This document shows, in pieces, positions 3,888 through 26,875 of a DNA stretch of 27,569 nucleotides (positions are counted from its first letter, which is position 1; every line of letters starts with the position of its first letter). The position numbers and the translations under genes were made by a program. Origin of the DNA: a virus; IMG/VR virus record IMGVR_UViG_3300025646_000262, positions 1 through 27,569 of that record. One strand, given 5' to 3'. The notes under the pieces were generated by a model. It ran no database searches. It was given only the letters and a program-made list of their open reading frames with translations, and had not been told where the DNA came from.

Positions 3888-3895
3888 TTTTACCC
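3888..3895 (-). promoter_or_regulatory. GGGTAAAA motif, putative late promoter for the giant structural gene
   Basis: Minus-strand GGGTAAAAG begins 4 nt after the TGA of the upstream gene and 54 nt before the ATG at 3841, the longest spacing in the set. It is one of eleven copies in the window. Promoter function is inferred from position and recurrence. Confidence 0.6.
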
Positions 3896-3899
3896 GATG

Positions 3900-4397
3900 T
3901 CACTCTTCCAGGTAGGCAGCCAGAGTTGCTTCCAGTTCAGCAATGCGGTCGGTCAGATTACTCAGCTCGGAAAACTCGCTGTGGTCCATCGTGCTGTTGT
4001 AGGTCTTCATCTGAGCAGCTCCCAGGTCCTTGACCGCCATCTGAGCATCCAGGCGCTCTTTCTCTTTGATTTTTTGAGCCACTTGCTTCATCTGATTCTG
4101 AAGCAATTGGAAGTTGCCCATCCGACGGGACTGAACCATTGCGGCCTGGAGGTTTTCAATTTCCTTACAAACCTGCTCGCAACGCTCGGCAACGGCCTCA
4201 AACTCCGACTTCTTGGCGCCAGAGGGCAGTAGCTCATTGTAGCTATCACGGAGCTTGGAGTTATGCTCGGGCTCTTCCACGGTGTTCCGCTTGTAGTCAG
4301 TCGGATCGTGGCTATAGTCTAAGATTTTATGCCCGTGCTCGGCATAAATTAGCAGAGCTTTTTCTACAGCTTCCTGTGAGATGGAGTCCTTTCTCAT
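3900..4397 (-). CDS. Hypothetical coiled-coil protein (165 aa)
   Basis: I do not recognise this protein. It is highly charged and mostly helical. Residues from about 55 to the C-terminus are rich in E, K, Q, A and L and contain two heptad-like stretches, around ENLQAAMVQSRR...MKQVAQKIKEKE and in the last 25 residues, so it probably forms a coiled coil. The N-terminus has a Tyr/His/Asp-rich segment near residues 18-40. No membrane segment or signal peptide is seen. The start at 4397 lies 33 nt after a GGGTAAAA site and has no clear Shine-Dalgarno sequence. It appears to be a one-gene unit, since another GGGTAAAA copy follows its stop. It could be a scaffold, tape-like or fibre-chaperone component, but nothing in the sequence decides this. 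Confidence 0.75.
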   Translation of the reverse strand: MRKDSISQEAVEKALLIYAEHGHKILDYSHDPTDYKRNTVEEPEHNSKLRDSYNELLPSGAKKSEFEAVAERCEQVCKEIENLQAAMVQSRRMGNFQLLQNQMKQVAQKIKEKERLDAQMAVKDLGAAQMKTYNSTMDHSEFSELSNLTDRIAELEATLAAYLEE

Positions 4398-4422
4398 TGC
4401 CGGACGAAGACATTATAGAGGG

Positions 4423-4430
4423 TTTTACCC
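4423..4430 (-). promoter_or_regulatory. GGGTAAAA motif upstream of the 4397 start
   Basis: The minus-strand motif shares its first G with the TAG stop of the gene at 4430-4762, and starts 33 nt before the ATG at 4397. It is followed 5 nt later by TATAAT, a sigma70-like -10 hexamer. The 15926 copy is followed by TATAAA at the same distance. Confidence 0.65.
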
Positions 4431-4762: not shown

Positions 4763-4764
4763 GG

Positions 4765-4899
4765 CTACCTCGGCTTGTTCTGTTTGAGGAGAACCTTATG
4801 CTGAGGCACTGATGCCTGGGGGTCTTTATGTGCGGGCTGGTTACTACCACGGTCTTTGTCCCGTGCGTCAAAGCCCATCAGGTGAAGGCGGTCGTTCAT
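4765..4899 (-). CDS. Short hypothetical protein (44 aa), ATGA-coupled
   Basis: A 44-residue hydrophilic ORF. Its ATG overlaps the TGA of the gene at 4896-5462 in an ATGA junction. Its own stop lies 2 nt before the next ATG, and its last codons contain the GAGG that serves that gene. The frame stays open upstream to 4977, but the coupled start at 4899 fits the packing of the operon better. The residues are mostly polar with many K, Q, N and D, and no domain is recognisable. It is supported by its position rather than by homology, and it may serve mainly to pass ribosomes on. Confidence 0.5.
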   Translation of the reverse strand: MNDRLHLMGFDARDKDRGSNQPAHKDPQASVPQHKVLLKQNKPR

Positions 4900-5462: not shown

Positions 5463-5739
5463 GGGGAAACCTTTGGCAGTGGAATTCGAGTTGCGAGACT
5501 CGCTCGGATAGGCGAAGGTGGTCTTCGCGGAGGGTGTAGCGGAGGGGTAAGTCCGACCGCATGTCTGTTATGGTTGTTTCAACTTTTTGAATGTGAGTAA
5601 GAACGACTTCAATGCGCTTATCATTCTTCTCAAGCATTTGGTCGATGCGTTTGTTGCTTCGCTCGCTGATCCAGGCTAGGCCACCCACGGAGGGAATGAT
5701 TATGCCTGCGATTATTCCCAGGAACGCCTCCAAACCCAT
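5449..5739 (-). CDS. Small membrane protein with coiled coil (holin-like candidate)
   Basis: A 96-residue protein with one N-terminal hydrophobic segment (about residues 4-24, Gly/Ile-rich and ending at LAWI). A charged helix follows, probably a coiled coil (about 26-60), and then a conserved-looking LPLRYTLREDHLRL stretch. One membrane helix plus a coiled coil is the architecture of several small phage membrane proteins, including some holin or lysis accessory proteins, but no lysis enzyme is visible nearby, so the lysis role is only a possibility. Its ATG shares the A of the upstream TAA (TAATG), with GGAG 7 nt upstream, so translation is likely coupled to the 234-residue protein. Confidence 0.75.
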   Translation of the reverse strand: MGLEAFLGIIAGIIIPSVGGLAWISERSNKRIDQMLEKNDKRIEVVLTHIQKVETTITDMRSDLPLRYTLREDHLRLSERVSQLEFHCQRFPHERE

Positions 5740-6443
5740 TACTTATCTCCGCTAGGTAGACCGGACTCACCAGCAGCGAGTCGTTTTTTGACGGACTCGG
5801 GGAGACCCGACTCCCACCCATGCTTTTTAGCGATGGAGATAATCTTGCTCATAATGGAGCGGGGGTTGGCTGCTCGGCCAACAGAAGACCAGGCAGCGGC
5901 CACATCCACGGGGCCAGCGATGGGGAAGGACATGTCGGGACCGGCAAACTCGCCTTTCACCTTACCTTCTTTGAGAGCCTTGCGCTTCTCGGTGCTCCAC
6001 TCACGGTACTCTGCGTCCTTTTGCTTAGCATTGGCGCAGATGGGGCAGCCAGCTCCTTTGCAAACGTGGTCCCTATAGGCCGGAAGCGGCATGCTCAGGA
6101 GCTCAGTGTCTTGTGAGTCTCCTTCGGAGAAACCGTACTCGGCTTTCTTCTTGTTCTTGAAGTCAGCGCTACGGGCCTTCTTACGAGCAAAGATCTCATT
6201 CATTGCGTCTTTACCGTCGGCATTCTCGTTGTAATCACGGTTGACGAGATTGGCCCGACGCTCCCGATGCGCTGCATTCATTTTGAGGATGTCCTCATTA
6301 TGGTCGGCTGCGCCCGATGTCCACTTGGGGCCTGACTTGTTTTGCTTCTTGAGCTGCTCACCGGAGACAGCGTTGCTTGCGTTAATGCCGCCCCCTACTC
6401 CCGGAAGCGAAACACCGCTAAAATCAAATGAGGACCCAAACAT
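5739..6443 (-). CDS. Phage protein with FAGPDMSFPI motif and Cys cluster (234 aa)
   Basis: A 234-residue, strongly basic protein. The C-terminal part carries FAGPDMSFPI (166-175), then DVAAAW, an IISIAKKHGW helix and a LPESVKK end. From memory this matches a short module found in many phage head or portal-region proteins with the pattern 'FAGPxxSFPI...VxxAWxxxGxA...IIxIAxxxG...LP'. C128, C133 and C136 form a possible small zinc site. The middle is Lys/Arg-rich with coiled-coil character. The start at 6443 lies 29 nt after a GGGTAAAA site and lacks a Shine-Dalgarno sequence. It leads a group of five tightly packed genes down to 4430. A structural or scaffolding role is plausible but unproven. 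Confidence 0.75.
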   Translation of the reverse strand: MFGSSFDFSGVSLPGVGGGINASNAVSGEQLKKQNKSGPKWTSGAADHNEDILKMNAAHRERRANLVNRDYNENADGKDAMNEIFARKKARSADFKNKKKAEYGFSEGDSQDTELLSMPLPAYRDHVCKGAGCPICANAKQKDAEYREWSTEKRKALKEGKVKGEFAGPDMSFPIAGPVDVAAAWSSVGRAANPRSIMSKIISIAKKHGWESGLPESVKKRLAAGESGLPSGDK

Positions 6444-6464
6444 AACTGGACACCGTTTGAAAGG

Positions 6465-6472
6465 TTTTACCC
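6465..6472 (-). promoter_or_regulatory. GGGTAAAA motif upstream of the 6443 start
   Basis: The motif contains the TAA stop of the upstream gene (codons GGG TAA) and starts 29 nt before the ATG at 6443. No Shine-Dalgarno sequence separates it from the start. Confidence 0.65.
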
Positions 6473-6826
6473 GTTGTCTTCCTCGTCCTCTCCCTCGAAG
6501 ATTTCGTCAACTACTTCGTTAAGCAGAGCATTGACTTCATCTTCACTCATTCCCTCAATCTCCCCGGCACCGTCCATCACTTCACCGGATAGGTAGGCGT
6601 TGGGGTCGAAGGCGGTTTTGAGGTCCTGGTCGGGACCTTTGCCGGAGGGATATTTCCAGAGGCCCGTATGCTCAATCCAGGGCGACGTGTTGGTTACGAC
6701 GTTGGTAGGCAAGCCAGAATTGTTTGCAACATTTTCTTGATCAGGAGAAGCAAGCTGTTGAGCGTAAGCAGCCCGGAATGCTTCAATAGCGTCCTGATCA
6801 AAGTCGCCGCCGATGCGATTGGTCAT
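6467..6826 (-). CDS. Acidic hypothetical protein (119 aa)
   Basis: I do not recognise this protein. The N-terminal third is helical with an Ala/Gln-rich segment, the middle has Trp, Pro and Gly, and the last 35 residues are very acidic (runs of E and D). The final codons GGG TAA are themselves part of a GGGTAAAA site. The start at 6826 is 31 nt after another copy, so this gene seems to form its own short unit. Acidic small phage proteins can be chaperones, scaffold parts or DNA mimics, but there is no evidence here for any of these. Confidence 0.7.
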   Translation of the reverse strand: MTNRIGGDFDQDAIEAFRAAYAQQLASPDQENVANNSGLPTNVVTNTSPWIEHTGLWKYPSGKGPDQDLKTAFDPNAYLSGEVMDGAGEIEGMSEDEVNALLNEVVDEIFEGEDEEDNG

Positions 6827-6835
6827 GATAGTTGA

Positions 6836-7189
6836 TTATCTTTTGCTGATTTTACCCGTCCGGTCTTGGAGCATTTTGCTATTTCCCATTAGCTTATTCT
6901 TGTACTTCTCAACCTCGTGCTTCACCTCAGCTTTGAGTTTTCCTTCTGAGATCAGACGCTTCTTCTTTTCTTTATCGGTTTCCTCAGGTTCGTTTTCCTC
7001 AGGGATCTCCACCTTTTCTTCCAGGCCCAGAATCTCATCATCGATACCACCAGGGTGAACATCCTTGGTAAGTTGATCTAGGAGGGAGTCCAGGTGATCG
7101 TGCAAGCGCCTACGGCACATTCCATCTACCCCTACGGATAGGGGGCCACAAGGGATCTTATGGTTCTTTATAAGTTCTTTGGCTTTCAT
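6836..7189 (-). CDS. Hypothetical charged protein (117 aa)
   Basis: A 117-residue protein with a Cys/His-containing N-terminal half (KIPCGPL, then MCRRRLHDHLDSLLDQL) and a highly charged C-terminal half of Glu and Lys repeats that is probably helical. I do not recognise a family. AAGGAG lies 8 nt before the ATG at 7189, and the preceding gene stops 2 nt upstream, so the two are in one operon. The 3' end of the coding sequence contains a GGGTAAAA copy that appears to serve the next gene. Confidence 0.7.
   Translation of the reverse strand: MKAKELIKNHKIPCGPLSVGVDGMCRRRLHDHLDSLLDQLTKDVHPGGIDDEILGLEEKVEIPEENEPEETDKEKKKRLISEGKLKAEVKHEVEKYKNKLMGNSKMLQDRTGKISKR
6850..6857 (-). promoter_or_regulatory. 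GGGTAAAA motif inside a gene end, upstream of the 6826 start
   Basis: The motif lies within the last codons of the 117-residue gene and starts 31 nt before the ATG at 6826. Its constant distance from the next start, despite lying in coding sequence, argues for a signal that serves the downstream gene. Confidence 0.6.
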
Positions 7190-7524: not shown

Positions 7525-9038
7525 TATCGGAACTTGGCAAGGTGTGCTTCCAAGGCATTCATTTTCTTGGGTGCTTCGCCAGATCCCACATCGGCTGAGA
7601 ATCCATACTTGCCATTTGTTTTGACCCATTTCTCCAGTTCTCCCTGAACCGCTTGGTTTTGGGAGGCCGTCAGGTGGGGGGTTAGAGCAGCCATCATCTT
7701 GTTGAGGGCCTGTTGAGGGGTAACGGTTCCGCCCTGCATTAGCTCTTTATTCCAGGTGTCCTTTATGCTCTGCGCAATTCTATCCGCCCCCGGCACATCA
7801 TTTTTGAATAGGAAGTTAATCCCCGCCCGGAACATTGGGGGAGCACCTGACTGAAGGCGAATGCCGGGGTCTCCTCCCCTAGCTGCGTCAGCAACTTTAC
7901 CCCAGTCACGAAGTTTGCCGTATGAACCAAGCACCTTAGATAGTGTCTTATCGTTTAGGCCCAGATTTTTTGGATTGAGGATGTCGTTGTCGTTGAAATT
8001 CTTTGGATTAACATTCTCCATCGCTTTATCTTTAATCTTCTTCAGGGTGTCCTTTTTACGAACGTCCCTTAGGTAGGCTATTTGCTCTTCCCTTGTCTTT
8101 GGAAGACGGTTGATAAAGGACTCCAACTCCTGGTCTACCCGTTTACGGTTAAGGCCAGCCCGAATCAAAACCCAGTTAGAGGGGGCGTCTTTACCCCCTT
8201 GCCCAAAGGGTTTAATATGCTCCACGTCCATGTCTTGCGGAGCAAATCGCTTACCGCCTCTGCCCATGTAGGCGTCGGTTCCCCCCTGCCTCATCCACAT
8301 ATCAAAAACAGCCAATCCCCTCTCTCGGGACCCGTTGTCGCCGGTCTTAAATTTGTCATTCCCGTTTTCATCTTTACCGTCATACCACCGTCCCGTAGCT
8401 TTGCCTGAGTTCTGAAGAGATGTCCTTGTACTTGCAGGCAACAGATCGTACATTGCCTCAAGCTCATTTCGAGGGAGCTTGATGCCCCTACTCATTGCGT
8501 CCAACTGCACGATGCGTTTAGCCATCTCGTCCCTGTCTGCACCTCTCAGGGTAGGTAGCCTCCTAATGAGTTCCAGGTTTTCCTCAAGCGTGGTCCTAGG
8601 TCTCTCTGCCCGCTTTTGATCTCGGTCGAACTCCAGCCGTGGTTTGGTAACTTTCTTTCCTGCCACTGTCTCTTGTCTCTTCTCTCCTTCCGAAACCTTC
8701 ATACCAGGAGCCATGCTTTGGAGGGCTGCGCCTTGACGAATGTCCGAAGCCGAGCCGGCGGTTAGTCCTTGCTTTCTTGCGATGTAGATCGCAGCACGTC
8801 TGACCTCTCGTTGCATAGGGATGGGCAAATGTACTAAGCAGTCCTTATTAAAGGCAATGCAAGTAGCACTACAAATTTTGCCTTGGCGACATCTCTTTCG
8901 GTAGCCACCAACAGCTTCATCTTTTGCCCTTATTATTTCCCTGCGGGTTGGGCCCTGACCCGTTTTCGCAGCCGCCACCCCCGTGTAGCCGGTAGGTGCT
9001 TTTGCAGCGAAATCAAAATTCAGGGCCCTGTTATCCAT
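7524..9038 (-). CDS. HNH-domain protein with N-terminal Cys motif (504 aa)
   Basis: A 504-residue basic protein with two recognisable parts. Residues 50-67 hold a four-cysteine element (C50, C56, C60, C67; KICSATCIAFNKDC), of a kind I recall from large-phage and cyanobacterial proteins. Residues about 255-300 form an HNH nuclease core: DVEHIKPFGQGG (E273-H274), N288 and N297 in NWVLIRAGLNRKR. The region after about 300 is helical and of unknown function. Such length is unusual for a free-standing homing HNH enzyme, so a virion-associated or packaging-associated nuclease is possible. It starts 5 nt after the phoH stop and is coupled by TAATG to the next gene. The HNH residues are intact, so activity is plausible. 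Confidence 0.8.
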   Translation of the reverse strand: MDNRALNFDFAAKAPTGYTGVAAAKTGQGPTRREIIRAKDEAVGGYRKRCRQGKICSATCIAFNKDCLVHLPIPMQREVRRAAIYIARKQGLTAGSASDIRQGAALQSMAPGMKVSEGEKRQETVAGKKVTKPRLEFDRDQKRAERPRTTLEENLELIRRLPTLRGADRDEMAKRIVQLDAMSRGIKLPRNELEAMYDLLPASTRTSLQNSGKATGRWYDGKDENGNDKFKTGDNGSRERGLAVFDMWMRQGGTDAYMGRGGKRFAPQDMDVEHIKPFGQGGKDAPSNWVLIRAGLNRKRVDQELESFINRLPKTREEQIAYLRDVRKKDTLKKIKDKAMENVNPKNFNDNDILNPKNLGLNDKTLSKVLGSYGKLRDWGKVADAARGGDPGIRLQSGAPPMFRAGINFLFKNDVPGADRIAQSIKDTWNKELMQGGTVTPQQALNKMMAALTPHLTASQNQAVQGELEKWVKTNGKYGFSADVGSGEAPKKMNALEAHLAKFR

Positions 9039-9043
9039 GTGGG

Positions 9044-9868
9044 TCAGTCGTCGTAGCGGTCTAGGATGTGTGCGATAACGGAGTTACGGACAATGTCTTC
9101 TTTTTGGAATTCCACAACACCAACCTCCATCAGATTACGAAGGCGATGAATAGCATCGACAAGTCCATTCTCACGGCGGAAGACCTCAAGGTCTGTCTGC
9201 TTAGTGTCCCCGATGAGGCAGATTTTTGAATCTTTGCCGACACGGGAGAGGCAAGTTTTGATGTGCGAAGGCAGGAAGTTCTGCGATTCGTCCACGATAA
9301 TGAAAGCTTCATTGAGGGAGCGTCCACGGATGTCTTCCAGCAGGACTGGCTCAATGATTTTCTTGTTGAGCAGATACTCTGCGGCGCCTTGTGAGCGCAT
9401 AATGCAAGGCAGGTTATCTAGCACCGGGGCAATCAGCGGAGCAATCTTCTCCGAAAGGTCCCCAGGCAAAGCGCCCCGTCCCCGTTGAAACTCTACGCCT
9501 ACGTCGCTACGGACATAGAAGACTTTATCAAACTGCCCTTGGGCAATTCCAAACAGTCCGTAATGGAGTGCGATGAGAGTTTTTCCGGTCCCCGCACAAC
9601 CGTGTGCGAGAGTTACAGTGTTTTTATTGAAGCAATTCCAGAGTTCCTCCTGTCGCCAGGTCAGGAACTTGGGTGGTTGAACATCCATCCCCTTGGAATA
9701 GGAGTTCTCTAGCATCTGGGCAGCTTCAGCGCGACGGTTCTTGCGCTTTTCCTTACTTGTGAGCATAATTGAAAGGTGGTGAGCAACGGTGGGTATCTGA
9801 AAAACATACGCTTTGTGCCTAAAAGGACTTACACTTTCACCACCCCCTTGGAAAGTAAGATCGGGCAT
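9044..9868 (-). CDS. phoH: PhoH-like P-loop ATPase
   Basis: A 274-residue PhoH-family ATPase. The Walker A motif GCAGTGKT is at 90-97, the PhoH signature IRGRSLNEAFIIVDE at 180-194 contains the Walker B acidic pair, and a sensor-like IGDTKQ follows. PhoH is very common in cyanophages. Its role in infection is unsettled (phosphate-stress or RNA-metabolism functions have been proposed). The start at MPDLTF (9868) is supported by a GGGTAAAA site 32 nt upstream. An internal ATG at 9766 would give a shorter, more typical N-terminus, so the first 34 residues may be an extension or may not be translated. It heads a unit with the HNH protein and two small proteins. Confidence 0.93.
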   Translation of the reverse strand: MPDLTFQGGGESVSPFRHKAYVFQIPTVAHHLSIMLTSKEKRKNRRAEAAQMLENSYSKGMDVQPPKFLTWRQEELWNCFNKNTVTLAHGCAGTGKTLIALHYGLFGIAQGQFDKVFYVRSDVGVEFQRGRGALPGDLSEKIAPLIAPVLDNLPCIMRSQGAAEYLLNKKIIEPVLLEDIRGRSLNEAFIIVDESQNFLPSHIKTCLSRVGKDSKICLIGDTKQTDLEVFRRENGLVDAIHRLRNLMEVGVVEFQKEDIVRNSVIAHILDRYDD

Positions 9869-9892: not shown

Positions 9893-9900
9893 TTTTACCC
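9893..9900 (-). promoter_or_regulatory. GGGTAAAA motif upstream of phoH
   Basis: The motif starts 32 nt before the ATG at 9868, just after the homing-endonuclease TAA at 9903-9905. An imperfect copy (GGTAAAG) lies immediately upstream across that stop codon. Confidence 0.65.
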
Positions 9901-9902: not shown

Positions 9903-10429
9903 TTACCACTTTTTCTTTTCTCTGGCCTTCCTCATGCCCTCGGCTATCTTTTGCCTGACCTCCGGTGGGCACGGCCTTGTTTTCTTGCCTCTCTTGGAGG
10001 CAGCTATCTTTTGCCTAGTTTCTTCCGAAACCGGTTTACCGAACCGAGGATTACCTGGACCTTTCCGAGTTTCAGACATTTTAGCTTTGGTTTCTTCAGA
10101 GAGTTTCTTCCCCCTATTTGCTTCGGACAGCCTTTTCCGGAAAGCGTCTGTGCGAACGACACCCGAGGGTCCATCTCCACCTTCGGTGAAGTTTACCAAA
10201 ATACCGGTGTTTATGTCTTTGCGTCCAAATATGAAGATCATGTAGACCTCATGCTTGAACGCTTCTTCTTCGGTGAGACCTTTCTTCAGGAATAGGATGC
10301 GCTCCCGGGGGGGACTTTGACCTTGGCGTGTTTATTGAACGCCCTGTTGCCTTTTCCTTTTCCAATGTAGTAAGGGGTACCGTCTTCCCTGAGGTAGGCA
10401 TAGGTGTAGAACATCAAAGCATCCACCAT
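9903..10429 (-). CDS. GIY-YIG/NUMOD3 homing endonuclease, split by a -1 frameshift
   Basis: Two minus-strand frames together make a complete mobile endonuclease of about 175 residues. The first (10429 to the TGA at 10286) has the GIY-YIG start: FYTYAYL then [14 protein letters not shown]. The second resumes with [17 protein letters not shown], the catalytic-Glu element [13 protein letters not shown] and GILVN, followed by three NUMOD3-type DNA-binding repeats ([42 protein letters not shown]). The shift falls exactly at a seven-C tract (plus 10307-10313). In the zero frame this reads C CCC CCC, so a -1 slip joins the frames. It could be programmed frameshifting, a real inactivating indel or a homopolymer sequencing error. 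It lies between the terminase group and phoH, a typical homing-element location. Confidence 0.8.
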
Positions 10430-10450
10430 TCGTCTTTCTCTAGCAGCCAC

Positions 10451-12720: not shown

Positions 12721-12872
12721 TAGAGTCTCCTTTTACATTTGGCGCATCCCCCAGGGGAGGGAGCGGGATTTGATTTGTAGGAATGTAACCTACGTAAGAT
12801 ACTTTGAGCGGCTTGTTTATCCCCTGAACTTACCGCTTTATGGTAGAGAGTCCAAAGCTGTTGAGCGGTCAT
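12720..12872 (-). CDS. Small basic protein with C-terminal CxxC (50 aa)
   Basis: The frame is open from 12929, but the ATG at 12872 overlaps the previous stop as TAATG, matching the junctions around it. The resulting 50-residue protein has a helical start (MTAQQLWTLYHKAVSS), a basic middle and a CAKCKRR tail. The CxxC alone is too little for a zinc-finger claim. It stands in the packaging unit two genes before terL. It could be a DNA-binding accessory or the true small terminase partner, but no family is recognised. Confidence 0.6.
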   Translation of the reverse strand: MTAQQLWTLYHKAVSSGDKQAAQSILRRLHSYKSNPAPSPGGCAKCKRRL

Positions 12873-14095
12873 TAGCAAACTGGCGACGGTCCTGAGTTGC
12901 CTGTACAAGGCAGACAACCCAGTTTCCACAAGGAGTTTATGACCGCCAACTCAAAGGTATCCTCTAACATCCAACCCTTACCCACGGGCGACTGGCCGAC
13001 GAAGTAGAACCGGCCTTTGGGCGTCTGGATAAAGGTTTCCATATTTACGCCAACGAGTGCCCCACCGTCTACCGATATTTGCTTGCCGTCCGGGTTTGTC
13101 GGGTCAGTATACACGTAGCTGTATCCACCTTTAACCACAGCGAATTCCCCAGTGTTAATTCCCGACATCCATGAGCTATCTTTTGAAGCGTTGAACGCAA
13201 TACCGCCATTAGCGGAACCAGCTATAGTGTTTCTCCACAGCTCAATGGCATAACGTGCGAGCTTTCTACCTGTGTCACAATAGAAAACTTCCTTGATGGG
13301 TTCACGAGTTATGGCGTCAAAGACGGTAACAACCAATTTACCGTCGCTCGTGTAACTGTTATTACTAAGGAGGTAGATGGGTTGACTCAGAGGGTCTTCC
13401 ATGAATACACAGTCAGGGTCACAGATGAATACCCAGTCTCCGCTCTGTGTAACCTCATTACTCCAGCGAACTCCCGAGCAAAGGTCATAGTCCTCTGCCG
13501 GCTCACCCTCACAGGAATACGCCGGTACGTAGATACTTCCAGTAGCGTCATCTAGCACACCCCCCAGGGGCAATTTTGTATCAACATTTCTGCCGGGGAA
13601 TATTTGCCTACAGTCCCCCCTCTGGACGCAAGGATCCAAGGCCACATACGGCAACTGGTTCTCAATGGTTACTACGTATGTCTGCGTGTAGGTGTATTGA
13701 GACTCCGGGGTAATCCCGGTAAACTGTTCGTTTTGACAGGTGAAAGGTTCAATGGTTTGAACGTAGGCTCCCGAGGGTACCGAGCCGTTCAAAGTCATAA
13801 ACGCACCTGCCAACAACTGCGTGGCGAAGTCGTGTCCAGAGGAGGTTAGATAGTTTTGAGCCGAGAAATTAAGTTCAAACGACATTTGTCGCTCAAACAC
13901 CATAGGAACCCTGTTCTTTACGTTGTCAGTGGATCCCACGTACCGGACAACAATGTTAGTCGATTGCTGGACCACACCCTCATTCTCAATGGCATCCGCC
14001 AGACGGAGAACGTTCACGCTAACGGGAATCAATGGAGATGCGATGAGAGCATCTACCATGAACTGCTCTATTCGTGAAATGGTTGAGAGATCCAA
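12872..14095 (-). CDS. Virion protein with tail-terminator-like N-terminus (407 aa, TTG start)
   Basis: A 407-residue protein. Residues 1-150 (ISRIEQFMVDAL..., FERQMSFELNFSAQNYL, FATQLLAGAF, YVVTIEN) resemble phage tail-completion proteins of the gpU/Mu gp37 kind, in which a helix-strand unit caps the tail tube. The rest is beta-rich with cysteine pairs (CDPDC, CLPC) and a PDGKQISVDGG turn region, unlike a simple terminator, so it may be a fusion. There is no ATG near the start: TTG at 14095 is preceded by an in-frame TAG seven codons upstream and lies 30 nt after a GGGTAAAA site. It leads the packaging unit. The terminator-like reading is tentative. Confidence 0.8.
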   Translation of the reverse strand: MDLSTISRIEQFMVDALIASPLIPVSVNVLRLADAIENEGVVQQSTNIVVRYVGSTDNVKNRVPMVFERQMSFELNFSAQNYLTSSGHDFATQLLAGAFMTLNGSVPSGAYVQTIEPFTCQNEQFTGITPESQYTYTQTYVVTIENQLPYVALDPCVQRGDCRQIFPGRNVDTKLPLGGVLDDATGSIYVPAYSCEGEPAEDYDLCSGVRWSNEVTQSGDWVFICDPDCVFMEDPLSQPIYLLSNNSYTSDGKLVVTVFDAITREPIKEVFYCDTGRKLARYAIELWRNTIAGSANGGIAFNASKDSSWMSGINTGEFAVVKGGYSYVYTDPTNPDGKQISVDGGALVGVNMETFIQTPKGRFYFVGQSPVGKGWMLEDTFELAVINSLWKLGCLPCTGNSGPSPVC

Positions 14096-14117: not shown

Positions 14118-14125
14118 TTTTACCC
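14118..14125 (-). promoter_or_regulatory. GGGTAAAA motif restarting transcription after a terminator
   Basis: The motif lies 6 nt beyond the T-run of an intrinsic terminator and starts 30 nt before the TTG start at 14095. Terminator followed at once by the motif is the clearest argument that the motif is a promoter. Confidence 0.7.
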
Positions 14126-14175: not shown

Positions 14176-15105
14176 TCAGAAGGTGCCGAGGTCGATGCCA
14201 GCCTCAATAGCACTCAGGCGAGTGTCAAGACCGGAGATGTCGGAGGCGTTGGTGGCGATGTCTGCGGTGTTGGTAGCAATGTCGCTTGCGTTAGAAGCGA
14301 TAGCCGCAGCATTTGTTGCGATGTCGGCAGCGTTGGTGGCGATGTCAGCGGCGTTAGCAGCAATCGCAGTGGCGTTGGTGCCTTCCGCAGCGGTTGCACG
14401 AGCAACTTCGTTGGTGATTGCGTTGGCGTTAGCAGTCTCCGCAGCAGTGGCACGAGCGATCTCGCTAGCCAGGTCAGCGGCTACGGTTGCAATGTCGCTG
14501 GTGTTGGTTCCGCTGTCGGTTTGAAGGGTAGCAATGTCCGAAGCGTTGCTTGCGATTGCGGCAGCATTGGTAGCAATGTCCGCAGTGTTGGTCGCAATAT
14601 CCGCAGCGTTGGCGGCGATAGCAGCCGCATTGGTGGCAATGTCGGATGCGTTAGTCGCAATGTCGGCAGTGTTAGCCGAGATGGCGCTAGCGTTGGCAGA
14701 TTCAGCAGCGGTGGCACGAGAAATCTCGTTAGTCAGGTTGGTTTGAACGCTGCTGACGCTGTTGGCGATTGTGGTGGCGAAGTTGGGATCGTCACCGAGA
14801 GCGGCAGCCAGCTCATTCAGGGTGTCGAGAACGCCAGGAGCACTCGCAATCAGGTTGGAGATTGCGGTGTCGGTGTAGGAGTTAGCAGAAGCTACGGCAG
14901 TAGCAATGTCCAGGTCGGTGGTGAAGAAACCTTGGCCAGTGGTGCCAGCCGTAGTATTACCGTCTACATCGGTAATAACGTTGCTACCATCACCAACAAA
15001 CAGCAGCTTGTCGGCAAGGTTGAAAGCGATCTGGGCAGGAGACAGAGCGGTGGGAACGCGACCTGCGACAGATGTGCGCAGGAACTGAATGCTATTTACA
15101 GCCAT
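14176..15105 (-). CDS. Trimeric coiled-coil tail fibre protein with IxxN heptads (309 aa)
   Basis: Residues 1-60 form a head domain (MAVNSIQFLRTSVAGRVP, LLFVGDGSNVITDVDGN) like other phage fibre attachment regions. VLDTLNELAAALGDDPNF (92-109) is a motif I recall from many phage fibres. Two blocks of heptads follow, I142 to about 197 and I248 to about 293. Each heptad begins with Ile and most have Asn three residues later (IATNAAD, IATNTAD). That is the IxxN or IxxNT pattern of anion-binding N-at-d layers in trimeric adhesin coiled coils. RATAAE breaks separate the blocks. No receptor-binding tip is present, so this is likely a shaft or linker fibre. It lies 21 nt after the previous stop and is followed by a strong terminator. 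Confidence 0.85.
   Translation of the reverse strand: MAVNSIQFLRTSVAGRVPTALSPAQIAFNLADKLLFVGDGSNVITDVDGNTTAGTTGQGFFTTDLDIATAVASANSYTDTAISNLIASAPGVLDTLNELAAALGDDPNFATTIANSVSSVQTNLTNEISRATAAESANASAISANTADIATNASDIATNAAAIAANAADIATNTADIATNAAAIASNASDIATLQTDSGTNTSDIATVAADLASEIARATAAETANANAITNEVARATAAEGTNATAIAANAADIATNAADIATNAAAIASNASDIATNTADIATNASDISGLDTRLSAIEAGIDLGTF
14227..14682 (-). repeat. Near-tandem 21-nt repeat arrays encoding heptads
   Basis: Two arrays (14515-14682 and 14227-14364) repeat a 21-nt unit encoding I-A-x-N-x-x-D/A. On plus it appears as variants of gcaatgtcggcagcgttggt. The copies differ mainly at third positions. Such arrays can expand or contract by recombination. Confidence 0.85.
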
Positions 15106-15126: not shown

Positions 15127-15375
15127 TTAGAATTCCCCATAGTTGGGGGCATAGTTGTTTAGGATGTCATCAGCAAGTTCCTCCGCCAAGTCACCAACAA
15201 TGGTGCCTACGACATCCGGCACGTCCAACACAAGTTTACCATTGACGACTTTGATGTCGCCGTAGTCGGTATTTGGAGGCAGCAAAGCAGGGTCAAACGG
15301 TAGTGCTGGTACAGCAGTGAGCGGTTGACTTTCGCCATACCCTCGCCGCATAGACATTAGTCGCAGAAGAGACAT
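15127..15375 (-). CDS. Small hypothetical protein before the fibre gene (82 aa)
   Basis: An 82-residue protein. The N-terminus MSLLRLMSMRRGYGES is basic, the middle is Pro-rich (PALPFDPALLPPNTDYGD), and a helical acidic end follows (VVGTIVGDLAEELADDIL). I do not recognise it. The start at 15375 lies 49 nt after a GGGTAAAA site. The frame is open through that leader, so a non-ATG start further upstream cannot be excluded. It is co-transcribed with the coiled-coil fibre and could be a fibre attachment or assembly factor. Confidence 0.7.
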   Translation of the reverse strand: MSLLRLMSMRRGYGESQPLTAVPALPFDPALLPPNTDYGDIKVVNGKLVLDVPDVVGTIVGDLAEELADDILNNYAPNYGEF

Positions 15376-15416: not shown

Positions 15417-15424
15417 TTTTACCC
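15417..15424 (-). promoter_or_regulatory. GGGTAAAA motif upstream of the 15375 start
   Basis: The motif follows the TAA of the 157-residue gene directly and starts 49 nt before the ATG at 15375. This is one of two long-spaced copies. Confidence 0.6.
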
Positions 15425-15898
15425 TTAGACGATTAGGTTAGAGGGGATAGAAGTGATGTAGCCTGTGTTGGAGTCGATGGTCACACCGTCGCCAGCTTTA
15501 ATGTAGCCATTCTCGGACAGGTAGGTGGTAAGAAGGCTCTCAACCCAACCCTTCGTCACGAACGCAGCAGCATTATTGGGGACTTCATATTGAGCGTAGA
15601 TGGGGCTCTGAAACACTCCACCATTGGTAGTGAGGGTGCCGTCAGGGTTTGCTACGACGCCGATCCACTGACCGCCATTCAAGTCAACATAGTAAATGTT
15701 GAGGCTGGCGTTAGTACTGTCGTACCAGAGTGAGCCAGAAACAGGATTTGCCGGGGGAGCAACACTAATGTAGACAGGGGAGCCTTTCGGAGTTGGTGCT
15801 GCGTAAGAGACCCACTGAACGCCATTCCACTTCCAAGTTTGGCCGTTGTTTGAGTAGACTTGGTCAAGAGTTGGGTTGGGTGGAAATGAGAAAGCCAT
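15425..15898 (-). CDS. Fibre-associated protein with WNG and LWYD modules (157 aa)
   Basis: A 157-residue protein of phage-fibre type. Residues 5-30 (FPPNPTLDQVYSNNGQTWKW, then NGVQWV) and 55-70 (GSLWYDSTNASLNIYY), followed by GGQWIGV, are short beta modules I recall from many phage tail appendages. The second resembles GELWYNTESG in the giant protein and GEMWWDFANP in the 971-residue protein. The C-terminal part has a NGYIKAGDGVTIDSNTGYIT turn motif. AAGGAG lies 12 nt before the ATG, which is 35 nt after a GGGTAAAA site. It probably forms part of a fibre or its collar. The exact position is unknown. Confidence 0.8.
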   Translation of the reverse strand: MAFSFPPNPTLDQVYSNNGQTWKWNGVQWVSYAAPTPKGSPVYISVAPPANPVSGSLWYDSTNASLNIYYVDLNGGQWIGVVANPDGTLTTNGGVFQSPIYAQYEVPNNAAAFVTKGWVESLLTTYLSENGYIKAGDGVTIDSNTGYITSIPSNLIV

Positions 15899-15925: not shown

Positions 15926-15933
15926 TTTTACCC
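15926..15933 (-). promoter_or_regulatory. GGGTAAAA motif upstream of the 15898 start
   Basis: The motif starts 35 nt before the ATG at 15898, and TATAAA follows after the same 5-nt gap as TATAAT at the 4423 copy. Unusually for motif-led genes, an AAGGAG is also present. Confidence 0.65.
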
Positions 15934-15936: not shown

Positions 15937-17016
15937 TCAGGGTCCCCAACCCTGGTTCGGGAACATGTAGCCGCCCGCATCCGAGGGTTCCGTGAGGTTT
16001 GCTGTGTTGCCGGCAAGATCCTGAAAGTTGTCAGGCGTAATCCAGTTAGGGTCAATGTCGTTTTGCCCAATTGCGCCCCATCCGATTCTATAATCGGGAG
16101 CCAGATCTCCGGCAGTGTCAGTGGCCCAACCACTCAGACCTTTACCGGAAACCATGTTGTAACGTTGCGGAATGCGCCAAGACCGCATTATTCCTTGCGG
16201 TGTGTCAATAGCAGAATCGCCGTTACCTGCTCGAATGGCGGTCATCTGCATCTCGGCAGCCAGTTGCTTCAGGGCTGACTCATAGTCTTGCTTTACATCG
16301 TCACGGCGGCGCACCGTGTCCAGATAGTATCGGGCGATGATAAGTGCTGTGCGGCGACGGTTACTGGTGATAAGCACCATCCCCGCCTTACCAGACTGCT
16401 CAATGTAACTATCAATGAGCGAGTTGGCATCCTGGATAGCCATGCGAAGCTTCGCCACGTTAACCGTGGTGGCGGCAGCATCGTCAATGTTTGTGAGCTG
16501 GATGGCCTCTTTCAGGCCATAGGCAACAATGAAATCGTCGGGGCTCGCAGAGCGAGGGTCCGACTTATGCTCGGTTAGAACCCCAGAACGGTTCTGATAA
16601 GGAAAGCCATATCCCCCGATGGTTTGACCCAGGTTGGACTGACTCTTTGACCCATCTGTTTGCTCATCAGGAGCCAACAGGTTGCGCCCAGGCACTCTGT
16701 AAAACGCCCTTACAGCATTACGCTTTAAGACAACATCGTTAGCACTAGGGGGAACTGGCCCCCGTAGGCACTGCTTCAAGTCGAGAGGCGGTTCGTAGCT
16801 TACGAATACTTGGTCCCAGGGGGAGAGGGATGAGTCCAACTCCAGGGTGATCATGGTGTCCGAGGAGTAATTTACGCTCGATACGCCATACTGGCCGTAG
16901 GATACCGTGAAACATCCCACAGGGACCGGAACTGTTGTGGCCAGAGGGGCGTCAAACCACAGAATTACCGAAGACGGAGAGGGGACGGTTACTTCTTTAA
17001 TTTTCGGCGTCGCCAC
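15937..17016 (-). CDS. Neck/head-tail adaptor-like protein (359 aa, GTG start)
   Basis: The N-terminal part (MATPKIKEVTVPSPSSVILW...) looks like a small beta-sandwich domain. The C-terminal part, around residues 155-260, has the pattern of Mu gp36-like (DUF1320) head-completion proteins: DDFIVAYGLKEAIQLTN, a MAIQDANSLIDSYIEQSG helix, RRTALIIARYYLD, and YESALKQLAAEM. Such proteins join head to tail. Two GTG codons could start it. 17028 lies only 21 nt after the GGGTAAAA site, while 17016 lies 33 nt after it, within the usual range, and gives a natural MATPK start, so I use 17016. The tail after residue 260 (ending FPNQGWGP) is not recognised. Confidence 0.8.
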   Translation of the reverse strand: MATPKIKEVTVPSPSSVILWFDAPLATTVPVPVGCFTVSYGQYGVSSVNYSSDTMITLELDSSLSPWDQVFVSYEPPLDLKQCLRGPVPPSANDVVLKRNAVRAFYRVPGRNLLAPDEQTDGSKSQSNLGQTIGGYGFPYQNRSGVLTEHKSDPRSASPDDFIVAYGLKEAIQLTNIDDAAATTVNVAKLRMAIQDANSLIDSYIEQSGKAGMVLITSNRRRTALIIARYYLDTVRRRDDVKQDYESALKQLAAEMQMTAIRAGNGDSAIDTPQGIMRSWRIPQRYNMVSGKGLSGWATDTAGDLAPDYRIGWGAIGQNDIDPNWITPDNFQDLAGNTANLTEPSDAGGYMFPNQGWGP

Positions 17017-17041
17017 AAGCAAAACCACAACCTTATGAAGG

Positions 17042-17049
17042 TTTTACCC
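17042..17049 (-). promoter_or_regulatory. GGGTAAAA motif upstream of the 17016 start
   Basis: The motif lies 8 nt beyond the end of the upstream gene and starts 33 nt before the GTG at 17016 (21 nt before the alternative GTG at 17028). Confidence 0.65.
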
Positions 17050-18983: not shown

Positions 18984-19292
18984 TCAGTGACCCCTAAGCA
19001 TAGAGAACTTGGGAACGTTTCTGGACCGGCGAATTCTCTCAGCACGCTTAGGAGGCTTTTCCTTTTCCGGAGCAGTTGACTCAACCTTGGGAACTGGGGG
19101 TTTTTTTAACTCAGGCGTGGGTTCGGGAATTGAGACCGTAATTGAGATAGCCTCATCTATCGAAGCCTCAAGTTCCGACACTCCTTCAACGGTAAAGGTA
19201 TCTTCTCCTTTACCTGGCTCTGGGAGAGCGACGTTGCCGTTATCCTCGGACTCGGGCTTTCTGGGCGGTTGATTTCTACGTCGAGAAGTCAT
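18984..19292 (-). CDS. Pro-rich, probably disordered small protein (102 aa)
   Basis: A 102-residue low-complexity protein: basic N-terminus (MTSRRRNQPPRKPESE), an acidic and hydrophobic middle (VSELEASIDEAISITVSI), a Pro/Lys-rich segment, and a basic end (RAERIRRSRNVPKFSML). It is probably disordered, and no family is recognised. It is the first gene after a GGGTAAAA site (29 nt) and lies directly before the hub gene, so it may assist hub or spike assembly, which is inference from position. Confidence 0.7.
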   Translation of the reverse strand: MTSRRRNQPPRKPESEDNGNVALPEPGKGEDTFTVEGVSELEASIDEAISITVSIPEPTPELKKPPVPKVESTAPEKEKPPKRAERIRRSRNVPKFSMLRGH

Positions 19293-19305: not shown

Positions 19306-22221
19306 CTAAAAGTTTTTACCCGGCAGCACGTAACCCGTTCGAGCACTGACTTCAGGGCTCCTCCAAGCTACTTCTTGTTGTACATCAAAGAAGCAGTCCT
19401 CCGCTGCTGACATGTCCGACGCAAAATAAGCGTAACCCACCTTGAATTGGTTTACATCAACCGTGTAGGAGGGTTCTGGAGCCTCACACGTAGGGGGACA
19501 CCTATAGATACTAGAGTCCCATACCGGGGGGAAGATGGGTATGAGAGAACCTTTAGCCAGATCATCATCGAAGTTTCCGGAGAGGCTTTTACACTCAACG
19601 CCAACTGTGTAGGTTCCCACCCACTCCCCGTACCCGTCCCCTGGGGGAGAATCGGTATCGGCAATCCGTTCATGGAGAGGCTGATAATCTGTTAGAACGC
19701 CAGGGGTAAAGTCATCTCCAACCTGAGAGGGAGTAGGATAAACGGCCGAATTAGAAAAGTCGCCGTCGTCGGGTTGATTGTAGTAAGTTCCTACAGTAGA
19801 AAAGAGGTAAGGCTCATCGTAAATTACGCCGTCATAAGGGACTGTCGGGGGATACAGAACTAACTCTCCGTACAGTTTAGGGGGTCGAGCACTCGGAGGA
19901 CAATCCAGTTTTTCCGCTTCGACTGTCGTCCCGTAATAGGTAAAGTCCTGAGCAATCATTTCCGTTTTCGACCATTTGTCTCCATTCCTTTCGTATGACG
20001 GAGGAAGGCGAAAAATCAAACGGCTCCAGTTCCCCGCAGGGCCTGAGTTTTGATCTGCTATCAGTGCGTTGGGATACAAACCTCTTTCCAGTTGACCCGG
20101 GTAGTCGACAGCTTGCAGGAAGGTTGATTTCCAGATTCGAAGGGGTGTCTCACAGTCTAAAACATTTGGGCTCATGTAGTACCTGAGACCACTAAAAAGG
20201 TAGTCGGAAATGTCCGCCCGGTAGGCAGAGGTGAGCGCATCGGCCACCAGAACTGCGGGGAATTGGGTTTTTCCTTTGAGGGTGTAGGGGGTGTAGGAAA
20301 AATTGAACATTCCCGTCGAACCGTCAATATCGAACTTGAACGTGAAGTCTTCCGTATCGATTTTTTCTCCCGGCGAGACTAGCTTACCGTCTACATAAAT
20401 ACCGACGGCATCGAAGGAGACAACCCCGGGATCTGTACCCAGTGGCGGGAAATAATTGATAGACACCCAGGCATTGCCGTACCAGATAGCCGCCATTCGG
20501 GTAGTGGGGTCAGGATTGGCAAAATCCCACCACATCTCCCCCTGCTCCGGCTCCCCCGAGCCATCGTAAAGCCGGGTATTTCCGATAAATCGCAAAATAG
20601 AACTGGGCGAAAGCAACCAGCTGTCCATAGTATACTCTTTCGTCAAGAGTAGTGCATACGACTGGAGTAAAGTAAGCTCGTACTCCAAGTTAATCACATT
20701 GTAGACTCCCGGTTCTTCCGGTTTCAGGCCTTCAGAGTCAAGGAGGCGAACCTCCGTACCAATGGGGAGGTAGGGGGCATTTGCGGAGAATTCCGCCACA
20801 TTAGCAAAGCCAAACTGATAAACCTCGTACAGAATGCCCTCCTTCTGGTTATAGAGAATAACCTCACCCGAACCCGGCAAAGGTGCGGTTATCCCTTTGA
20901 CCCAGTAGGTTCCACCGTCTGCTTGAAGGCCGGTGACGTCAAGAATTCTGATTGTTCCCCCTAAGGCAATATTCGGTGCGTCCGCAGCAAACTCAGCCAC
21001 AGTGTTATAGGTGTAGGTAGCTCGGGGTATTGGTTCTGGGTTTTGACGATAGTTCACTTCCAACCACGCACCGCAGCTAACATCCCTGGGCGGGTTAACG
21101 GAGAAGGCCCCGTTAGCGGGGTTCCACCACGCTGCCCATTCCCCAAGGTTGTCGGGATTCTCCATCCTTTGGGAGGTTTTCTGGTAGTAAGCCAGATTAA
21201 GGAGTGTGTTAAACTCTATACTTTTCTGGATGGGGTCCAGGTAGAGGGAATTTGCCTCATCAAACCCGTTGATGCTTAGAGCATCGAAACAGAGGTTGAA
21301 AGGTAGCACACCTCCCTTGTTCCCCCAAGCCCCAGTGTAATTTGACAAAACTTCGTAGTTGTTCCAGTCCGAAGGGTCAACCCAGTTGTACAACGTTACT
21401 TCGCAGACGACATCAGTCTGTACGCTACGATTTGAGTAGGGCCATACCAGGTAGCCAGTGGATCCAGATCTCCCTCCGGCAACGTCGTTAGGTAAATCTA
21501 TGTACCACCTTAACTCAATCGGGTCGTACTGGGTTTCTACAAAAGGTTCTAAGGGGGCGTTAGAAGCCGAAAAATAAACCGGCTGGTCGAAGAAATATCG
21601 AGAACCGGGGATAAGTATGTTGTACTTATAGGGTACGGTGTGTTGTCTGTCCCAGTAGGGGTACAGAACCAGGGTTCCGTTCTCAGCAGCACATGAGAAG
21701 GCCGTATCTGCCGATACTCCGGGCTCAGGACGGACGAACGGGGCGGGTCTATTTTCTCGGCTATCTATCTTGAGCTGTGCGTTCTCCTGAAACCCGTCAT
21801 AAAAACCCGAGTCGGTGTTAGTCAGGTGAAGAACCAGGGTATCACCTTGCTCCTCTATCTGTTCGATTGTCGCTGTTTTATCGCCCAGGTAGCAGGTTTG
21901 CCCTTCCCTTAGCCCCTCTACGTACTTTACGAGTAAATAGTCGTCTGTGCTGTCCGCACCCAGTACTTGCGGGATCGTAAAGCTGTTGAACACCCCGTAG
22001 CTTCCCGCCAGTAGTTGACGCTTCTCGCTTACTGTGCGAGCCAGGTTTTTCCAGTAGTTATCTCCACTCCACCCTAAAAGTTGAGCAACCCAATCAAGTT
22101 GGCCATTTACACGCCTCCTGACCTCCGTTACAGCCCGAGACTGCTCGTTACTAAGGTAGGGATCGAGCTGAGATCTGAGCTCAAACTCCTCGATGTTGAA
22201 GCTGGGGGTTTCAAAAGTCAT
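19306..22221 (-). CDS. Large tail/baseplate structural protein with duplicated module (971 aa)
   Basis: A 971-residue, beta-rich virion protein. The N-terminal 80 residues are helical (SNEQSRAVTEVRRRVNGQ, NYWKNLARTVSEKRQLL) and may dock to the baseplate. The middle contains a duplication: WWNPANGAFSV to VNY (366-391) and VAEFAADAP...RILD (408-427) are matched by VAEFSANAP...RLLD (475-495) and MWWDFANP to INY (563-590). The C-terminal region has Cys pairs (CPPTC). The length and position after the Baseplate_J gene suggest a large wedge-type component or fibre connector, but no T4 homologue is recognised. TAA and ATG are adjacent at the junction with the 409-residue gene. Its last codons contain a GGGTAAAA site. 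Confidence 0.8.
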   Translation of the reverse strand: MTFETPSFNIEEFELRSQLDPYLSNEQSRAVTEVRRRVNGQLDWVAQLLGWSGDNYWKNLARTVSEKRQLLAGSYGVFNSFTIPQVLGADSTDDYLLVKYVEGLREGQTCYLGDKTATIEQIEEQGDTLVLHLTNTDSGFYDGFQENAQLKIDSRENRPAPFVRPEPGVSADTAFSCAAENGTLVLYPYWDRQHTVPYKYNILIPGSRYFFDQPVYFSASNAPLEPFVETQYDPIELRWYIDLPNDVAGGRSGSTGYLVWPYSNRSVQTDVVCEVTLYNWVDPSDWNNYEVLSNYTGAWGNKGGVLPFNLCFDALSINGFDEANSLYLDPIQKSIEFNTLLNLAYYQKTSQRMENPDNLGEWAAWWNPANGAFSVNPPRDVSCGAWLEVNYRQNPEPIPRATYTYNTVAEFAADAPNIALGGTIRILDVTGLQADGGTYWVKGITAPLPGSGEVILYNQKEGILYEVYQFGFANVAEFSANAPYLPIGTEVRLLDSEGLKPEEPGVYNVINLEYELTLLQSYALLLTKEYTMDSWLLSPSSILRFIGNTRLYDGSGEPEQGEMWWDFANPDPTTRMAAIWYGNAWVSINYFPPLGTDPGVVSFDAVGIYVDGKLVSPGEKIDTEDFTFKFDIDGSTGMFNFSYTPYTLKGKTQFPAVLVADALTSAYRADISDYLFSGLRYYMSPNVLDCETPLRIWKSTFLQAVDYPGQLERGLYPNALIADQNSGPAGNWSRLIFRLPPSYERNGDKWSKTEMIAQDFTYYGTTVEAEKLDCPPSARPPKLYGELVLYPPTVPYDGVIYDEPYLFSTVGTYYNQPDDGDFSNSAVYPTPSQVGDDFTPGVLTDYQPLHERIADTDSPPGDGYGEWVGTYTVGVECKSLSGNFDDDLAKGSLIPIFPPVWDSSIYRCPPTCEAPEPSYTVDVNQFKVGYAYFASDMSAAEDCFFDVQQEVAWRSPEVSARTGYVLPGKNF
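19314..19321 (-). promoter_or_regulatory. GGGTAAAA motif inside a gene end, upstream of the 19292 start
   Basis: The motif lies in the last codons of the 971-residue gene (encoding GK) and starts 29 nt before the ATG at 19292. Like the 6850 copy it is embedded in coding sequence yet keeps its distance to the next start. Confidence 0.6.
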
Positions 22222-26270: not shown

Positions 26271-26282
26271 GATAAGACCTCA

Positions 26283-26840
26283 TCACAGCGGGCATACCTG
26301 GTCGGAGCCACCTGTTACGGAGTAGTTGTAGCAGCCAGGGTCGGTAGTTGAGTAGTAAACACCGTCATCTACGTACAGAAGGGCCTGAATACGGTCAAGT
26401 TGTTCTTGCAGGATCTCTTTAGTGATGAGGTCCGCATCGTCCATTGCCTGGAGCTTCTGGGGGAGAGTGGGAGTAGGGATCCCGGAAGCGTACTGATATT
26501 TTTCGTTAGTGGTATAGCTTTTTGGGGCCGTAGTAATATCGTTGGCAGGGTTTTCAACTATGACAGGGTCATAGCCGAAGTTCCAATAGCCGGTTACAAC
26601 CTTTCCACCGCTGATGGGGTTACCAGAGACGTATAGACCACTAACACTCATGGTCGGTTGGTTGGAGCCCAACGTAATATACCTTGAGTCGATTCCGTCT
26701 GGGCCAGCGGTAATTAAGGAGCTTAGCCCCAGGGGGTCATAGTGCCAGTCAAGGTCCTGCCCATCGAAGTAGATTTGCTGAGCTCCGTTCAACCATTGGC
26801 TAGTAACAATAACGCCTGAACTAAAGGTCGTTTTACTCAT
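26283..26840 (-). CDS. Tail-region structural protein (185 aa)
   Basis: A 185-residue protein. The N-terminal 100 residues look beta-rich with an opening similar to other phage structural proteins (FSSGVIVTSQWLNGAQQIYF). A loop with Pro, Thr and Tyr follows, then a helix (LQAMDDADLITKEILQEQLD) and a C-terminal Tyr/Cys segment. No family is recognised. The start lies 35 nt after a GGGTAAAA site that follows a terminator, so it heads the baseplate block. A tail or baseplate accessory role is inferred from that position. Confidence 0.75.
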   Translation of the reverse strand: MSKTTFSSGVIVTSQWLNGAQQIYFDGQDLDWHYDPLGLSSLITAGPDGIDSRYITLGSNQPTMSVSGLYVSGNPISGGKVVTGYWNFGYDPVIVENPANDITTAPKSYTTNEKYQYASGIPTPTLPQKLQAMDDADLITKEILQEQLDRIQALLYVDDGVYYSTTDPGCYNYSVTGGSDQVCPL

Positions 26841-26867
26841 GCCGCGACTTAAATACTGTTATTAGGC

Positions 26868-26875
26868 TTTTACCC
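26868..26875 (-). promoter_or_regulatory. GGGTAAAA motif at the head of the baseplate block
   Basis: The motif lies 11 nt beyond the T-run of an intrinsic terminator and starts 35 nt before the ATG at 26840. It has the same terminator-then-motif arrangement as at 14118. Confidence 0.7.

Follow-up and report, generated by a model that had tools for sequence, protein, structure and literature searches.

GGGTAAAA, a candidate single-element late promoter of cyanomyoviruses related to Synechococcus phage S-CBWM1

Genes and octamer copies in the window

The stretch of DNA analysed here, referred to as the window, spans an entire virus record of 27,569 bases. The genes identified in it lie on the minus strand, including an open frame of 1280 aa (3841..2), and their content is that of packaging, neck, tail and baseplate, together with PhoH. 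A PHROG scan recognised the large terminase, a head-tail adaptor, tail-fibre-like proteins, the tail tube and a baseplate wedge protein, with 12 of the 20 proteins scanned having no PHROG match. The octamer GGGTAAAA occurs as eleven exact copies, every one on the minus strand and with no plus strand counterpart, in agreement with the number, orientation and positions given in a preliminary description of this DNA; 100 dinucleotide shuffles of the window, counted on both strands, contained a mean of 1.19 copies and a maximum of five. The copies are given below, with distances measured between the first G and the start codon and with the proportion of orthologues of the downstream gene that are also led by the octamer.

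26868..26875, minus strand: GGGTAAAA, 35 nt before gene 26840..26283; adjoins a terminator-like hairpin; orthologues led 8/8, including S-CBWM1
19314..19321, minus strand: GGGTAAAA, 29 nt before gene 19292..18984; within the 3' end of frame 22221..19306; none of the relatives yielded an orthologue of the downstream gene
17042..17049, minus strand: GGGTAAAA, 21 nt (GTG) or 33 nt (second, in-frame GTG) before head-tail adaptor gene 17028..15937 (PHROG); orthologues led 9/12, S-CBWM1 not
15926..15933, minus strand: GGGTAAAA, 35 nt before tail-fibre-like gene 15898..15425; orthologues led 11/11
15417..15424, minus strand: GGGTAAAA, 49 nt before gene 15375..15127; orthologues led 2/2
14118..14125, minus strand: GGGTAAAA, 30 nt before gene 14095..12872 (TTG start); adjoins a terminator-like hairpin and precedes the genes that lead up to the large terminase; orthologues led 12/15, including S-CBWM1
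9893..9900, minus strand: GGGTAAAA, 32 nt before PhoH-like gene 9868..9044; orthologues led 12/15
6850..6857, minus strand: GGGTAAAA, 31 nt before gene 6826..6467; within frame 7189..6836; orthologues led 8/12, S-CBWM1 not
6465..6472, minus strand: GGGTAAAA, 29 nt before gene 6443..5739; overlaps the stop codon of 6826..6467; orthologues led 3/10, the weakest of the set
4423..4430, minus strand: GGGTAAAA, 33 nt before gene 4397..3900; orthologues led 8/8
3888..3895, minus strand: GGGTAAAA, 54 nt before the large open frame 3841..2, which runs off the contig

Several details of the preliminary description were borne out by this list: two copies lie within coding sequence (6850 and 19314), one overlaps a stop codon (6465), and two (14118 and 26868) follow hairpins that, by eye, resemble terminators. 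Its spacing of 29-35 nt for nine copies, with 49 and 54 nt for the remaining two, holds only if the second GTG is taken as the start of the gene at 17028, and the C said usually to come next after the motif is found at 6 of the 11 sites.

Two further features of the window were observed. A tail-fibre-like protein encoded at 14176-15105 on the minus strand is built of runs of NASDIATNAA-type repeats, and two adjacent minus strand frames at 9903-10450, between PhoH and the terminase, have orthologues in only three relatives each. The latter resemble the start of a GIY-YIG domain and NUMOD-like repeats, and are perhaps a homing endonuclease gene split over two frames.

Distribution, position and conservation of the octamer

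The window is part of the genome of an uncultured virus related to S-CBWM1, the latter being the nearest named relative by the large terminase (51% identity over 98%), followed by the S-TIM5 group (33%). S-CBWM1 has a 139 kb genome, infects Synechococcus sp. CBW1002 and belongs to the genus Aokuangvirus; it has been termed a non-T4 cyanomyovirus (PMC10665884). In total, 80 IMG/VR loci with related terminases were fetched, and the motif scan was applied to the contigs of the 14 longest. The preliminary description had proposed scanning the genome and its relatives for the octamer relative to gene starts, and such scans revealed a motif that is both oriented and placed: GGGTAAAA is the commonest octamer in S-CBWM1, with 33 sense copies against one antisense, and the 14 related contigs contain 188 sense copies against one antisense, the octamer again being the commonest in G002 (29:0) and G005 (31:0). 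Among 20 contigs reached through their sigma factor genes, several of which overlap or are near copies of one another, the ratio on the majority strand was 277:13. Copies on the minority strand were more numerous in G022 (277 kb; six copies), G033 (201 kb; three) and G020 (34 kb; two) than in other relatives. Judged against the expectation of a Markov model built on neighbouring words, GGGTAAAA was not singled out as over-represented, whereas raw counts, strand bias and position did single it out; in our view this is because the octamer itself inflates its sub-words.

No enrichment was evident in eight other cyanophages, four of them with Synechococcus hosts, in which the counts were near those of reversed-pattern controls: the forward to reverse ratios were 8:4 in S-TIM5, 1:0 in S-CBS2, 1:0 in S-CRES3, 11:10 in MaAM05, 3:4 in Cr-LKS4, 0:2 in S-H34, 1:1 in Ma-LMM01 and 0:0 in Mae-Yong1326-1. 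The reversed-pattern control in S-CBWM1 gave 4:1. No description of GGGTAAAA was found among the matches listed by a full-text literature search, the reach of which did not extend to the first description of S-CBWM1 (Xu et al. 2018, cited in PMC10665884).

The motif is closely tied to gene starts. In S-CBWM1, 20 of the 33 sense copies are found 25-45 nt before an annotated plus strand start, a range covering 2.6% of positions by expectation (P = 8e-24), with the other 13 falling outside it; this makes GGGTAAAA the best positioned of the 4847 octamers having at least six copies in that genome. Across the 14 contigs and the window, an ATG frame begins 22-48 nt downstream of 137 of the 199 copies, as opposed to 955 of 6000 random positions, and the distance has its mode at 33 nt; 30 of the 199 have no ATG frame at 15-80 nt. 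The sequence is nearly invariant, as of the 24 single substitutions in S-CBWM1 it is AGGTAAAA that stands out (nine sense copies, six in place), followed by GGGTAAAT (four and two).

Conservation follows individual genes. The octamer was present in 73 of 93 orthologue comparisons for ten motif-led window genes, and hence absent before 20, but in only 5 of 196 for 20 other window genes, when the region between 130 nt upstream and 30 nt downstream of the projected start was considered in relatives that are not independent of one another. The eleventh motif-led gene, 3841..2, was omitted since its frame runs off the contig. S-CBWM1 has the motif at the orthologues of 26840, 14095 and PhoH, the proteins being 43-55% identical, but not at its orthologues of 6826 and 17028. 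Genes internal to runs do not have it (the large terminase, for example, in none of 15 orthologues), as would be expected if the motif starts transcription units. The preliminary description had also drawn on the lack of Shine-Dalgarno sequences at motif-led genes. A core is indeed present in only 11 of 110 such genes, but the lack is not specific to them, as in S-CBWM1 a core is found at 7 of 27 led genes and 45 of 145 not led (P = 0.66), and the observation was discarded as support.

The type of gene that is led also appears to be restricted. With gene classes assigned by us from annotated names, and the motif allowed R as its first base within 110 nt, the motif leads 10 of 20 structural genes in S-CBWM1, leaving the other ten without it, against none of 13 replication or nucleotide genes (P = 0.002); the figure for the others is 26 of 139. 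In the 190 kb relative G018, all 21 copies of GGGTAAAA lie beyond 101 kb (P = 1.5e-7), and there are none in the first 100 kb, though most genes called there share that strand. The structural proteins of S-CBWM1 and of the window have all their G018 matches at 109-169 kb; its DNA polymerase, primase and nrdAB genes are in the same half as the motif, and its topoisomerase, thymidylate kinase and SNF2 genes are at 76-101 kb. This gene content and regional confinement suggest that the genes led by GGGTAAAA are likely to be of the late class.

Sequence context, sigma factors and interpretation

As some of the related contigs look like near copies, sites were de-duplicated to less than 60% context identity, retaining 163 of 232, with those of S-CBWM1 and the window included. 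The base ahead of the octamer is C or A, and the base after it is C in the relatives and T or C in S-CBWM1, where the octamer's own first base is seldom A. Counting from the first G, a pyrimidine occupies offset 13 at 116 of the 163 sites (P = 7e-9) and A occupies offset 14 at 101 (local A content 29%; P = 4e-18); offsets 14-16 are A-rich. The start codon most often follows 27-40 nt after the first G, and the A at offset 14 is kept whether this distance is 31 nt or less (76% of 33 sites), 32-34 nt (60% of 40) or at least 35 nt (62% of 37). Hence the pyrimidine-A step occupies a fixed distance from the motif, where a transcription start would lie.

Neither a logo of 144 sites nor a test of words 11-38 nt upstream of all 163 identified a -35 or activator site. 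TAGGC was found at one site (0.7 expected), GTTT at 19 (15.8 expected) and TTGAC, representing the TTGACA -35 of the housekeeping sigma70, at seven (6.0 expected). The strongest upstream hexamers, CTTCGG (14 sites; 1.6 expected) and GCTTCG (eight; 1.0 expected), are words of terminator hairpins, and a terminator-like hairpin with a T run is present within 60 nt upstream of 17 of the 163 sites, as opposed to 34 of 1630 random places. No such enrichment is evident in S-CBWM1 alone (1 of 35 led against 4 of 137 not led).

Two genes of S-CBWM1 are annotated as sigma factors, the preliminary description having suggested a search for a gp55-like sigma or transcription factor gene. P0001 (gp055, 204 aa) comprises region 2 and, on the evidence of both alignment and a structural model, a region 4 with an intact helix-turn-helix; its best NCBIfam matches are to the sigma70-ECF superfamily and SigK, with SigB/SigF/SigG only fourth. 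Its gene follows early-class promoters, as judged by eye, in 13 of 13 loci, and one copy of AGGTAAAA falls in the apparent -10 of such a promoter. P0002 (gp045, 241 aa) has region 2 followed by a helix-turn-helix segment. It matches sigma families in general, the best in NCBIfam being SigB/SigF/SigG (E = 3e-14) and SigF (3e-12), both of which end near residue 154 and score far below their cut-offs; the former reaches 53.4 bits over residues 17-154 only, against a full-length cut-off of 234.35. No gp55 entry was among the 50 fold matches listed. Aligned with sigma proteins of Synechocystis and a Cyanobium genome, the C-terminal domain of P0002 retains the beginning of region 4 but not its helix-turn-helix, four rows of the P0002 family having a gap at this point; Pfam region 4 matches only residues 119-136, and a model of low confidence (mean pLDDT 67, pTM 0.39) predicts three C-terminal helices where P0001 has four.

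P0002-like genes with 51-57% identity were found in 13 of 16 contigs searched. Of the other three, G005 shows no more than a weak cross-match, located at its P0001 gene, and stops approximately 4.7 kb past the start of that gene; in 11 other loci P0002 is 5.5-8.4 kb further along. G033 stops shortly beyond P0001, and in G002 neither gene was found. The frame that precedes P0002 ends similarly in all 13 loci read and carries the annotation nrdA in S-CBWM1. A copy of GGGTAAAA is located between the P0001 and P0002 genes in 10 (L125, L126, L135-L137, L139, L140 and L143-L145) of the 11 loci holding both, S-CBWM1 being without it; through this copy, late transcription might act back on the nrd-P0002 genes. 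In sigma70, Q437 and T440 of region 2.4 read the -12 pair. At these positions the SigF-like protein of Synechocystis has G and Q, the P0002 family G with Q or N, P0001 G and Q, two Cyanobium proteins G and L, and the S-TIM5 sigma F and L.

Taken together, these data make it very likely that GGGTAAAA is a promoter, and the balance of the sequence evidence favours P0002 as its reader; we regard it as probable overall that S-CBWM1-like cyanomyoviruses use single-element late promoters built around this octamer and recognised by this phage sigma factor. The sigma-like late promoter envisaged in the preliminary description fits most of the tests, namely orientation, distance to the start codon, conservation, start signature, structural bias and the presence of two sigma genes, as well as terminators at part of the sites. 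P0002, encoded behind nrdA, would direct the host core polymerase to GGGTAAAA, where the DNA would be melted at TAAAA and transcription would begin at the A of offset 14, giving a 5' leader of roughly 15-25 nt. Early-class promoters would serve P0001, P0002 would be made along with the nucleotide-reduction genes, and the structural genes would then be transcribed from GGGTAAAA. A SigB/SigF-like factor lacking the helix-turn-helix of region 4, and hence a reader of the -35, would need only a -10, and this would explain promoters of a GGGTA type with no -35; the missing domain of this small phage sigma thus predicts the shape of its promoter. The motif would provide a readable late-gene code, from which late operons could be called by sequence, for a group of cyanophages seen in many metagenome contigs but with one close named relative in the phage collection.

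The late promoter consensus of phage T4 is TATAAATA, from which the almost invariant GGGTAAAA departs, having GGG in its upstream half where T4 has TA. The contrast with T4 promoters that was originally emphasised is smaller than it seemed, as both elements hold TAAA: with a T4 element of this sequence beginning at -13, as described for positions -13/-12 (PMC2988020), the distance from TAAA to +1 would equal that from TAAA to A14 in the phages studied here. The T4 late system (gp55/gp33/gp45) likewise uses one 8 bp element about a helical turn before the start, with no -35, and gp55 is described as a sigma-like protein with a region 2 domain and a helix-loop-helix that works with no equivalent of region 4 (PMC2988020, PMC7892883). 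P0002, in contrast, resembles SigB/SigF, keeps a region 3-like stretch and a remnant of region 4, and has no gp55 among the family and structure matches listed for it. Similar -10 sequences are described for Bacillus subtilis SigB (GTTTAA-N12-14-GGGWAW, with a -10 of GGGTAT; PMC8346170) and Synechocystis SigF (TAGGC / GGTAA; PMC2758279). The GGGTAAAA logo contains this GGGTA/GGTAA signature, the start-like signature suggesting its placement as a -10; however, both of these systems also have a -35, of which none was found in the phages, whilst the phage element has a further invariant A and the phage sigma aligns with no region 4 helix-turn-helix. The cyanophage Ma-LMM01 similarly has temporal classes, but is described as having promoters of all classes that resemble those of host SigA, and as encoding no gp55-type sigma (PMC5780444).

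A late promoter read instead by P0001 is unlikely, although this sigma is encoded on the same contigs as P0002 and shares with the relatives of the latter an RG-x-x-Q sequence in region 2.4: its intact helix-turn-helix leads one to expect a -35 element, of which there is no sign, its own genes follow early-class promoters, and its family matches do not favour SigB/SigF/SigG. A host SigF-type factor borrowed by the phage seems distinctly improbable. Synechocystis SigF needs GGTAA at -12 (PMC2758279), and a Cyanobium genome, from an organism not known to be a host, encodes a SigF-like protein scoring 160.8 bits, below the cut-off of 261; however, SigF also needs TAGGC at -32, which is no commoner upstream of GGGTAAAA than expected, and the motif is not enriched in the other cyanophages, including those of Synechococcus.

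The fixed distance to the start codon, and the copies located inside upstream genes, could alternatively reflect a signal in the RNA 5' leader, such as a processing site or translation enhancer. This is more improbable again, as the pyrimidine-A signature tracks the motif rather than the start codon, orthologues of other window genes are almost always devoid of the motif, and it is absent from the first 100 kb of G018; furthermore, a motif lying between a terminator and the next start, as at an above-chance number of the 163 sites though not in S-CBWM1 alone, is difficult to reconcile with a signal for RNA processing or translation. Least probable of all is that GGGTAAAA is the site of a phage activator before a weak promoter, the real -10 being a TATAA-like word 3' of the motif at offsets 12-16. 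Two window sites have TATAAT or TATAAA approximately 13 nt after the first G, and the A-richness at offsets 14-16 would agree with this, but the remaining window sites have no such word and the strong positions, a pyrimidine at 13 and A at 14, are a better fit to a start site than to a -10.

Other octamers and an early promoter class

An equivalent element may be present in S-TIM5 (NC_019516.2; L164-L172). The octamer GTTTAAAG is found 20-45 nt before called starts in 20 of its 36 copies, as is the variant GATTAAAG in 8 of 16, giving a consensus of G[TA]TTAAAG; some copies come directly after terminators by eye. This is a candidate late promoter of Aurunvirus, which resembles GGGTAAAA in the kind of position it occupies, its TAAA core and the lack of any visible second element, but differs in the bases of the upstream half and at position 8, as do the respective sigma factors in their region 2.4 residues. 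The SigF-like sigma gene of S-TIM5 lies near the terminase gene, and its product aligns in hhalign with the P0002 family at 93%, with 26% identity across 110 columns; the loss of G in region 2.4 alongside the loss of GG from the octamer is suggestive but short of proof, as P0001 too has G and Q at these places. Since this SigF-like sigma accompanies G[TA]TTAAAG, likeness to SigF alone does not predict GGG. A general rule equating SigF-like phage sigmas with GGGTA was rejected on this basis, and because S-CBS2 and S-CRES3, the sigmas of which are annotated as SigF or match it, have one copy of GGGTAAAA each. The best octamer in S-CBS2 was GCATCCTA (6 of 8 copies), none reached the threshold in S-CRES3, only weak AT-rich words were detected in 100 of the 101 kb of Cr-LKS4, and 180 of the 274 kb of MaAM05 gave none.

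These comparisons leave about an even chance that a cyanobacterial myovirus lineage made its own late transcription system, capturing a sigma of the SigB/SigF type, deleting from it the helix-turn-helix that reads the -35 and thereby arriving at single-element promoters like those of T4 by another route, and that the more distant S-TIM5 lineage drifted to another octamer together with its sigma. S-CBWM1 and S-TIM5 form a natural pair for finding the residues that choose the upstream half of a -10 element.

A second class of promoter was found in positions 1-100000 of G018 (L195-L199), the region free of GGGTAAAA. It consists of GGCGGTTT or GGGCGGTTT, then CTTGY, an inverted repeat and SGSTATA; a single pattern identifies 18 copies, all in the first 100 kb, with none antisense. 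This looks like a two-box promoter of the host sigma70 type with a palindromic spacer, and the palindrome itself looks like an operator. A related early-type sequence occurs in S-CBWM1 (NC_048106.1, e.g. at 8917, 23046, 38767 and 101576), in which GGCGGTAAACCGCCCTTTAC is followed approximately 20 nt on by CTAAGCTGAC or CTAAAGT, the palindrome here directly preceding the -35-like word; by eye, about a dozen of the 19 places with CGCCCTTT in this genome are of the early type.
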